Part shown: piece by piece, positions 26,992 through 33,214 of the stretch | Position numbering within the stretch: position 1 is the stretch's first letter | Layout of the letters: each line of letters begins with the position of its first letter | Source of the DNA: Kiritimatiellia bacterium | Lineage (GTDB): Bacteria; Verrucomicrobiota; Kiritimatiellia; PWTM01 | DNA length: 33,337 bases | Direction: 5' to 3' | Assembly (NCBI GenBank): GCA_017996315.1 | Contig: JAGOHE010000006.1 | Coordinates: 1-33,337 of the forward strand | Notes under the pieces: generated by a model | Database searches by the model: none | Told to the model about the DNA's origin: nothing | Seen by the model: the letters and a program-made list of their open reading frames with translations, nothing else | Program-made: the position numbers and the translations under genes

Positions 26992-27074
26992 TCATCCAAA
27001 GGTTGGATGAACTCTGCCGCGTTCCATCCAAGGGTTGGATGAAACCGATGGCATTTCATCCAAGGCTTGGATGA
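26992..27074. promoter_or_regulatory. Three palindromes at exact 32-bp spacing (operator-like array)
   Basis: TCATCCAA-AGG-TTGGATGA (26992-27010), CATCCAA-GGG-TTGGATG (27025-27041) and TCATCCAA-GGC-TTGGATGA (27056-27074) are centred at 27001, 27033 and 27065. Only the 3-nt centre and the intervening 13 bp differ. A 32-bp period is three helical turns, so all face the same side. The remainder of the gap 26824-27193 holds no gene; AT-rich DNA with a 9-bp inverted repeat GAATTTTTT/AAAAAATTC (27097-27105, 27123-27131) lies between the array and the next gene. Confidence 0.7.
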
Positions 27075-27193
27075 GACCCCCGATGCGTGGGCGCCTGAAT
27101 TTTTTCTAAAAAAATATCCGGAAAAAAATTCGTCCCGATTCTGTATCGGAATGGACGGCGTCATGGGGACGCGGTTCCGAAGGAGATCAGACC

Positions 27194-27808
27194 ATGCAGA
27201 GCACACGAAACGGACGGACGAATGGAACGAGCACGGAAGCGGGCGGCGACGCGCGGGCGTACGCGCCGCGGCTGGCTTTTTATCGGGCGAACGGTCAGGG
27301 AACAGGCGCGGTGGCGCAGTTCAACCTCAAGCTCGAACGCGCCGGGAACGAACGGGGAGGCAACTGCCTTTTCCTGTCCATGGCGCGGCAACTGCCGGCC
27401 GAGGCGCCGGTCGAGAACGGCCGGGGCACCGGCCGGTTTGACTGGCAGAATCGGGCCGCGGTGAAGCTCGATTTTTTCGATGCCTCGGAAATTCTCGCCG
27501 TGCTCGAGGGACGCCAGCCCAGCGCGGGCGGGGAGAAGGGGGTGTATCACGTCTCGCGCGGGATGAACACCATCATCTCCTTCAAGCGGCGCGAGGATGG
27601 CGGCTATTGGCTGGGCGTGTCGCGGCGCGACGAGGCCAAGCAGCCGGTATTCAAGGCGCAGATCGGGCTGAGTGATGCCGAAGGCGTCGGGCTGCGGTGC
27701 GCGCTGCAGGGCATTATGCCCATGCTGGCCTTCTTCCCGTTCGAACGGCCGGAAACGCCGGACGCGGGTCGGCCGGACCGCAAGGACGCCCGGCGAGAGG
27801 AAGACTGA
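27194..27808 (+). CDS. Hypothetical beta-rich protein, possibly nucleic-acid binding
   Basis: I cannot name a family for this 204-residue protein. It has a short Gly/Asn-rich N-terminus, then a core from about 25 to 175 made of alternating beta strands and a helix: PRLAFYRANGQGTGAVAQFN, CLFLSMARQLP, FDWQNRAAVKLDFFDASEIL, GVYHVSRGMNTIISFKRR, YWLGVSRRDE and LSDAEGVGLRCALQGIMPML. The tail is charged (RPDRKDARREED). The strand-rich core with basic residues reminds me of Whirly/MRP-type single-strand DNA/RNA-binding proteins, but that is a weak impression. AAGGAG stands 8 bp before the ATG. Upstream is the three-palindrome array; downstream a repeat element starts right after the stop codon. Confidence 0.6.
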   Translation: MQSTRNGRTNGTSTEAGGDARAYAPRLAFYRANGQGTGAVAQFNLKLERAGNERGGNCLFLSMARQLPAEAPVENGRGTGRFDWQNRAAVKLDFFDASEILAVLEGRQPSAGGEKGVYHVSRGMNTIISFKRREDGGYWLGVSRRDEAKQPVFKAQIGLSDAEGVGLRCALQGIMPMLAFFPFERPETPDAGRPDRKDARREED

Positions 27809-28111
27809 GCAGAGAGCGGAGAGCAGAGAGCGGAGAGCGGAGAAGGCGGAGGATAGAGGACGGAAGTCCGAGGTCCGAAGTCCGAAGTCCGAGCGGGAAC
27901 CGCATTCGCGCTATTCGCGTGATTCGTAGTTTCTTCCCTACCGACTTTTACTACGAATATCGCAAATCACGCGAATCCGGAGGGCCGAGGTCCGAAGTCA
28001 GAAGACGGAGGACGGAGGACAGAGGGCGGACGACAGAGGACGGAGGGAGGAACGAAGAGCGAAGAGCGTAGAACCCAGCGCCCAGGACTCAGGACCCAGA
28101 ACCTGGAGCGC
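27809..28111 (+). repeat. Heptamer-phased repeat element with hairpin core, copy A
   Basis: From the base after the stop codon, the sequence reads in strict 7-nt units (GCAGAGA, GCGGAGA, AGTCCGA, GGTCCGA and others, 13 units to 27899). The core (27904-27976) has a 27-nt left arm built of 9-mers ATTCGCGCT, ATTCGCGTG and ATTCGTAGT, a 19-nt pyrimidine-rich loop, and a right arm that is its inverted match at 22 of 27 positions. Then 7-nt phasing resumes (GAGGACG, GAGGACA, GAGCGAA, GGACTCA and others, about 20 units) up to the last base before the tRNA gene. A second copy in opposite orientation is at 32905-33208. Any reading frame here is spurious. Confidence 0.85.
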
Positions 28112-28197
28112 TGGTGCCCGGGGCGGGACTCGAACCCGCACGACCTTTCGGTCAACAGATTTTAAGTCTGTTGCGTCTGCCATTTCGCCACCCGGGC
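28112..28197 (-). tRNA. tRNA-Leu (anticodon UAA)
   Basis: On the minus strand the acceptor GCCCGGG pairs with CCCGGGC, followed by A and an encoded CCA. The anticodon arm is ACAGA-CTTAAAA-TCTGT with anticodon TAA, then a long variable arm (GACCGAAAGGTC) and the T arm GCGGG-TTCGAGT-CCCGC. The 86-nt length and long variable arm fit a class II leucine tRNA. It begins 7 bp after the aroK stop on the same strand. Confidence 0.97.
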
Positions 28198-32472: not shown

Positions 32473-32898
32473 ATGAGCGAGAATAACGCCCCGAGTCCCT
32501 CGGGCGAAACCGATATCATCTTCGATTGCCCCCGCTGCGGCAAAAGCCTGTGCATTGAAGAATCGGGCGCGGGCCGCGTGGTTCCCTGCCCGGACTGCGG
32601 AACCCGGATGCAGGTGCCCATTCCCGAGCGTATGACCCGGCTGCTGAAACCCGGAATGACCACGATCGCCGATTACACCGCCGCCCAGGAAAGCCCGGCG
32701 GAAGACTCCGACGTCCTGCGCGAACGAGTCCACCAGCTCGAAGGCACCATGGAAGAGGTCCAGGCGCGCAAGAGGGAACTCGAGAAACTACGCATCGACA
32801 ACGCCCTGCGGTTCCAGCGCGTACGGGATGAATTGACCCTGATCCAGTCGGCCCTCGACCGCATCACCGATATCCTCCAGAACGCAACCGGCCCCTGA
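32473..32898 (+). CDS. Small zinc-ribbon and coiled-coil protein
   Basis: The 141-residue protein has an N-terminal zinc ribbon with two CxxC knuckles, FDCPRCGKSLCIEE and VPCPDCGTRMQVPIP (residues about 19-49). A linker follows, and then a long coiled coil from about 80 to 137 (LRERVHQLEGTMEEVQARKR, ELEKLRIDNALRFQRVRDEL). Such ribbon-plus-coil proteins are common in planctomycete and verrucomicrobial genomes without a known role; I cannot assign a function. GGGAGGTGG stands 4 bp before the ATG. It is transcribed away from leuA and ends just before repeat copy B. Confidence 0.75.
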   Translation: MSENNAPSPSGETDIIFDCPRCGKSLCIEESGAGRVVPCPDCGTRMQVPIPERMTRLLKPGMTTIADYTAAQESPAEDSDVLRERVHQLEGTMEEVQARKRELEKLRIDNALRFQRVRDELTLIQSALDRITDILQNATGP

Positions 32899-32904
32899 CG
32901 TCCC

Positions 32905-33208
32905 CGCCCTCGGACCTCGGACCTCGGACTTCGGACCTCGGTCTTCCGTCTTCCGTCTTCCTCCGCTCCACGCTCTATGTCCTACGCTCTGTACTCAGGC
33001 CTCGGCCCTCTGGATTCGTGATATTTGCGATATTCGTAGTTAAAAATCGGTAGGGATGAAACTACGAATCACGCGAATAACGCGAATGCGGTTCCCGCCA
33101 CCGGACCTCGGACATCGGACCTCGGACTTCGGACTTCGGTCTTCCGTCCTCCGTCTTCCAACCTCCGTCTTCCTCCGCTCCCCGCTCTATGCTCCCCGCT
33201 CTTCCCTT
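32905..33208 (-). repeat. Heptamer-phased repeat element with hairpin core, copy B (inverted to copy A)
   Basis: Read on the minus strand, this repeats the plan of copy A. Strict 7-nt units (GGGGAGC, ATAGAGC, GACGGAG, GTCCGAA, GTCCGAG, 16 units) lead to GGCGGGA and a core with left arm 33087-33061 (ATTCGCGTT, ATTCGCGTG, ATTCGTAGT). A 20-nt loop (33060-33041) and a right arm (33040-33014) follow, then 7-nt units again to about 32905. From GCGGGAACC through GAGGGCCGAGG (33098-33000) it matches copy A nearly base for base. The stretch 32899-33256 has no gene. Confidence 0.85.
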
Positions 33209-33214
33209 CGCCAT

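Follow-up and report, generated by a model that had tools for sequence, protein, structure and literature searches.

Among the intergenic tandem repeats of prokaryotes, heptamers are reported to be the most abundant, and they offer no clear clue to their function (PMC6344855). Heptanucleotide arrays of the STRR or SSR type have been described in Calothrix, Nostoc, Xanthomonas (GGGAATC) and Beggiatoaceae (TAACTGA) (PMC4692102; PMC4679880; PMC6344855). Heptameric repeats are over-represented in bacteria, and their arrays can be heterogeneous, as in the (GGGANTN)n arrays of Xanthomonas (PMC4692102) and the mixed heptamers of Microcystis (PMC4679880). Strains have been reported to differ by 7-nt indels (PMC4679880). 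S1, Csp or Csr proteins have been proposed for the TAACTGA repeats (PMC4679880). A different class, the REP/REPIN/BIME elements, comprises short intergenic palindromic modules that are present many times over, as singlets or inverted pairs (PMC3733652; PMC3116915), with REP super-families bearing GTAG or CGTC tags in several phyla, including Verrucomicrobia (PMC3733652).

The locus described here lies in a 33,337-nt stretch of DNA from a Kiritimatiellia bacterium (contig JAGOHE010000006.1), which we call the window. It is a new composite of known repeat kinds, in which two heptad arrays flank an inverted pair of 9-mer arms and the whole takes up the entire gap, no more and no less, between an ORF of 204 aa and a converging tRNA gene. 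The features are as follows.

27194..27808, plus strand: ORF of 204 aa, no match in a Pfam search, stop codon inside the first heptads
27800..27897, plus strand: left heptad array, 14 GA-phased units, no phase break
27898..27903, plus strand: junction AACCGC between the last heptad and the first 9-mer, common to many copies in the genome
27904..27930, plus strand: left arm, 27 nt, three 9-mers ATTCGCGCT ATTCGCGTG ATTCGTAGT
27931..27949, plus strand: loop TTCTTCCCTACCGACTTTT, 19 nt, conserved between copies to the same degree as the arms
27950..27976, minus strand: right arm, 27 nt, three 9-mers ATTCGCGTG ATTTGCGAT ATTCGTAGT on the other strand
27978..28111, plus strand: right heptad array, about 19 GA-phased units
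28112..28197, minus strand: tRNA-Leu(TAA), its 3' end abutting the right array
32880..33210, minus strand: second window copy (heptads, core, heptads), core at 33006-33091, in the opposite orientation to the first

The left array begins a little before 27809, within the final codons of the ORF, and passes in order through zones of GAGCRGA, GAGGACG and GARGTCC to a final unit, GAGCGGG. The zones of the right array are CCGAGGT, CGGAGGA, AAGAGCG and CAGGACC. Taken as 27900-27930 and 27950-27980 on either side of the loop, the inverted pair is 81% complementary. Upstream, at 26992-27078, a self-complementary 32-bp unit (TCATCCAAGGGTTGGATGAAACCGACCGCATT) is present in 2.7 repeats; this unit also adjoins heptad arrays on other contigs of the same genome (L031, L035, L036 and L037).

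As in heptanucleotide STRRs, the tandem 7-nt period is above chance. In the comparison with shuffles that an earlier note on this DNA had proposed, the left array (27809-27893) has a lag-7 identity of 0.756 and the right array (27978-28111) one of 0.709, against 0.33 and 0.32 in dinucleotide shuffles, with 0 of 2000 reaching the observed value in either array. Lag-9 identity in the core (27900-27980) is 0.486 against 0.253 in shuffled sequence (0/500); neither heptad array has a raised lag 9, and the core shows no significant rise at lag 7. The 7-nt phase reported in both flanks is thus borne out, as is the inverted pair of 27-nt arms with three 9-mers each, but the two periods that the note had called nested are adjacent, and come from two distinct families of repeats that are joined here. 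The phase consists of a GA dinucleotide every 7 nt, unbroken in the left array from 27800 onward and kept throughout the right array except in one unit that lacks GA. Its description as strict holds for this copy and fails for the sister copy at 32.9-33.2 kb, in which each array contains one +1 phase step.

The heptad arrays share with STRRs their intergenic 7-mer tandems, variable unit number, possible heterogeneity of units, broad and patchy distribution, and a period whose cause is unexplained. Unlike STRRs, their unit types shift in ordered zones within one array around the GA anchor, and a fixed junction connects the end of the array to the 9-mer inverted module. Their units are also not near-identical, a property that the earlier note had ascribed to known heptanucleotide arrays, although published ones can be heterogeneous. 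The core, for its part, resembles REP/REPIN/BIME elements in its dispersed intergenic inverted modules, mosaic combination and conserved end motif, so the earlier statement that standard repeats do not explain the element was too strong. Unlike in REP/REPIN elements, the arms are tandem 9- or 10-mers ending in GGTTTC and apparently not a short stem tagged with GTAG or CGTC, no cognate RAYT was found beside the copies, and the conserved ends of the window pair face inwards. Arms end in CGTAGTTTC in the window and mostly in CGTGGTTTC or CGCGGTTTC elsewhere, and the stem layout differs from that of described REPs. Bacterial MITEs are similarly non-coding, about 80-130 bp long, inverted at their ends and dispersed in copies, but no parent transposon was found for the window element. 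A CRISPR array was rejected, there being no layout of identical repeats with unique spacers, as was a retron-type element or known RNA family, for which neither the layout nor any Rfam match except the tRNA was found.

We favor, with a probability of roughly 0.6, a composite intergenic repeat of two independent families, a slipping heptad array and a REP/REPIN-like arm module. The data below show directly the two periods, the further copies, indels of whole units, the gradient of unit similarity with distance and the occurrence of the arms in many phyla. In a heptanucleotide array of STRR or minisatellite type, slipped-strand mispairing or unequal recombination would add and remove whole 7-nt units, slippage being the presumed biochemical step, while the units would diversify by substitution. 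Phase would persist because copying moves whole units and indels inside a unit are rare. The second family would be a widespread, non-coding, REP/REPIN-like inverted-arm module of 9-mers. Heptads, junction and arm may move together as one block, reaching further intergenic sites and entering tandem super-repeats, with the arms mobilized in trans, perhaps by a Y1/HUH-type transposase. The preference for period 7 is left unexplained by slippage.

The search for further copies that the earlier note had proposed was run on the one draft genome of the species (2.2 Mb, fragmented, 83.9% complete), where the 303-bp element as a query gave 34 BLAST matches and the arm ATTCGCGTGATTCGTAGT occurred at 36 sites with three or fewer mismatches (reversed control, 0). 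Among copies read closely, the common order is heptads, GCGGGAACCGC or GCGGGCGTCGC, arm, loop and second arm, followed by heptads in both window copies and on contig C195 or by further hairpin modules in the other copies. Several copies have the left arm alone, without a second arm. The composite recurs about every 320-470 bp along contigs C41, C218, C114 and C87. Gene orientation around the copies is mixed, the window copy lying between converging genes. The tandem super-repeats of about 320-470 bp at L030, L031, L032 and L033 are made up of heptads, arms and several differing short hairpin modules, and super-repeats on several contigs keep these components in the same order. Modules with TGGGGACACTGAARCAG, of which the genome has 8 sites in all, are found in L030, L033 and L040, in the last close to an arm; they resemble the GGGGWSAS motif of tyrosine-transposase terminal inverted repeats (PMC3733652).

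Comparison of these copies reveals how the heptads change. Read back from the shared junction, copies in this genome carry 1 to 15 heptads upstream of it, and unit number varies in 7-nt steps, as in STRRs. Two neighboring copies on C41 are near-identical save for an exact 21-nt indel, equal to three heptads, and homologous arrays on different contigs (L028 and L031) differ in unit number and by substitutions. The arm 9-mers likewise vary by whole units, two or three, between copies, as seen from the distance of 22 or 13 nt between the end of the array and the core motif. In 54 arrays from several genomes, which had been selected by lag-7 identity, adjacent units are 0.739 identical against 0.588 with unit order permuted, and identity keeps declining as units lie further apart, reaching about 0.48 at six units (51/54 arrays); in arrays selected by GA phase alone the values are 0.686 and 0.641, a weaker effect that still declines with distance. 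This gradient argues, less strongly in the GA-selected arrays, against a conserved consensus maintained without local copying. Together, the whole-unit indels and the distance gradient suggest that the phase is kept because units are gained and lost whole and otherwise change by substitution, in the manner of degenerate minisatellites. The earlier note had proposed ongoing growth by slippage or templated copying; slippage is supported by the whole-heptad differences, the 21-nt indel and the gradient, and templated copying has no evidence of its own.

Ribbon-helix-helix proteins on DNA, and CsrA on GGA in RNA, are models for contact of one heptad per subunit. If the arrays were binding sites for a protein of this kind, selection would act on spacing and tolerate change within units. 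Such arrays would be consistent with a GA anchor each 7 nt followed by five freer bases, with a most conserved column that averages 0.93 within arrays, with GGA in many units, and with the S1, Csp or Csr proposal for TAACTGA repeats (PMC4679880). However, units differ widely between arrays of one genome and change steadily along the length of an array, with no single consensus, unit number varies freely, and the orientation of neighboring genes is mixed. We therefore consider selection by a binding protein unlikely.

A functional hairpin, acting as a terminator or small RNA between the converging ORF and tRNA with the heptads as passengers, is a somewhat poorer candidate. Its predicted RNA fold of -31.9 kcal/mol (z -3.5) and the convergence of the genes fit such a role, but covariation between the arms was not above shuffles in the copies compared, the mismatched dinucleotide tails of the arms are kept between copies, and the loop is conserved as strongly as the stem. 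In addition, no T-run terminator was found at the hairpin, an Rfam search of the window matched the tRNA alone, and several copies have only the left arm. A conserved RNA hairpin was rejected on the absence of covariation. None of these results points to a role for the host. The best-supported reading is a mosaic that expands by itself and is dispersed between genes, and the element would have no specific host function, being mostly selfish or neutral intergenic filler.

The arms belong to a family that extends far beyond this genome. Their signature is a series of ATTCGYG 9-mer units ending in GGTTTC or GTAGTTTC, and the pattern ATTCGYGTN{1,2}ATTCGYRGTTTC was found on more than 100 genome contigs from at least a dozen phyla, a lower bound. 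These include Verrucomicrobia, Planctomycetes, Chloroflexi, Calditrichota, Bacteroidota, Acidobacteria, Cloacimonadota, Spirochaetes, Gemmatimonadota, Armatimonadetes, Hydrogenedentota, Sumerlaeota and several proteobacterial groups. A slightly shorter pattern gave 557 copies in a Calditrichota genome (G048), 389 in Candidatus Thiosymbion (G058) and 201 in an Opitutaceae genome, with 0 control matches in all 57 genomes searched, most of which had been picked because they contain the arm pattern. Units are spaced by 10 nt in 87 of 127 arms and by 9 nt in the other 40. An upstream inverted partner, with GAAACC/GGTTTC ends outwards, accompanies 47/127 arms (3 control positions), and the inward-facing arrangement seen in the window accompanies 6/127 (3 control). 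The window hairpin may thus be two arms set tail to tail and not the usual unit. Searches of the open-licence literature by sequence string and by topic returned no description of an ATTCGYG family, which looks undescribed there. A plasmid or phage origin was rejected, since plasmid and phage collections gave no match to the element and only 7 viral-contig stretches carry the arm. RAYT linkage was also rejected: the three Y1_Tnp genes of this genome have no core copy beside them and only one heptad match, and tblastn with their proteins against loci around arms in other phyla, a weak check, gave no relative. Neither of these searches yielded a mobilizing enzyme for the arms.

Heptad arrays next to arms show no clear enrichment outside the window's own genome (6/127 arms against 43/1721 control positions), and an obligate coupling across phyla was rejected on this result. 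That the arm family, with the layout GAAACC-ACGAAT, loop, ATTCG-GGTTTC, is one cross-phylum mobile non-coding element, and that it and heptads made by a shared 7-nt copying process spread as one repeat system, has little chance of being right. The 303-bp query does match heptads in one Verrucomicrobia and one Chloroflexi genome, and the core in Thiosymbion.

In stretches unselected for repeats, period 7 itself leads among the periods that are not multiples of 3. Counts at period 7 against periods 5, 8, 10, 11 and 13 were 4 vs 0 in the window's genome, 12 vs 1 in the family member G003 and 12 vs 0 in classmates. Within Verrucomicrobiota, an RpoB tree built from members of the family and class puts the family next to a named Kiritimatiellae genome (support 85/87); the draft genome itself gave no RpoB match. 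For scans of GA repeated every 7 nt (nine times), period 8 was used as the comparison, because the arrays also carry AG every 7 nt and a reversed pattern is not a valid null. GA-every-7 occurs in 121/241 genomes of the phylum and GA-every-8 in 56/241; the site counts are 70 vs 0 in the window's genome and 201 vs 0 in G003, and a Chloroflexota sample has GA-every-7 arrays in 28/151 genomes. As in STRRs, the position is intergenic and there are many arrays per genome, with unit sequence differing widely between them. Some Verrucomicrobiota lineages (G139, G143, G137, G157 and G239) are rich in degenerate period-8 arrays (GATGGTTTGATGGTTGG..., GAAAGTTTGAAGGTTTGA...). Period 7 is thus preferred and not universal, and the preferred period differs by lineage.

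The recurrence of period 7 with very different units in the lineage, the phylum and Chloroflexota might instead reflect a dedicated enzyme that copies in 7-nt steps, by templated or primed synthesis in a 7-nt register, and the literature gives no cause for heptamers (PMC6344855). Degenerate period-8 arrays are nonetheless common in some other lineages, no candidate gene was found, and slippage produces the same pattern, which makes such an enzyme very unlikely. Decayed coding sequence or an assembly artefact is the least probable of all: open frames do run through arrays and the draft is fragmented and incomplete, but a 7-nt period shifts the frame, many differing copies lie on separate contigs, other organisms have repeats of these kinds in long contigs, and in most samples the majority of period-7 arrays fall outside long ORFs (long-ORF share 0.05 vs 0.86 in the window's genome, 0.35 vs 0.78 in classmates and 0.17 vs 0.62 in multi-phylum loci). 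G003 is the exception (0.85 vs 0.90, no shift out of long ORFs), probably owing to the frequent spurious frames of GC-rich DNA.

Because so many related arrays in this lineage have the same junction, the gain, loss and substitution of units can be followed in them without intermediates. The arm family, which has a clear signature and reaches hundreds of copies per genome in some cases, provides a handle on how distant phyla come to share small non-coding repeats.
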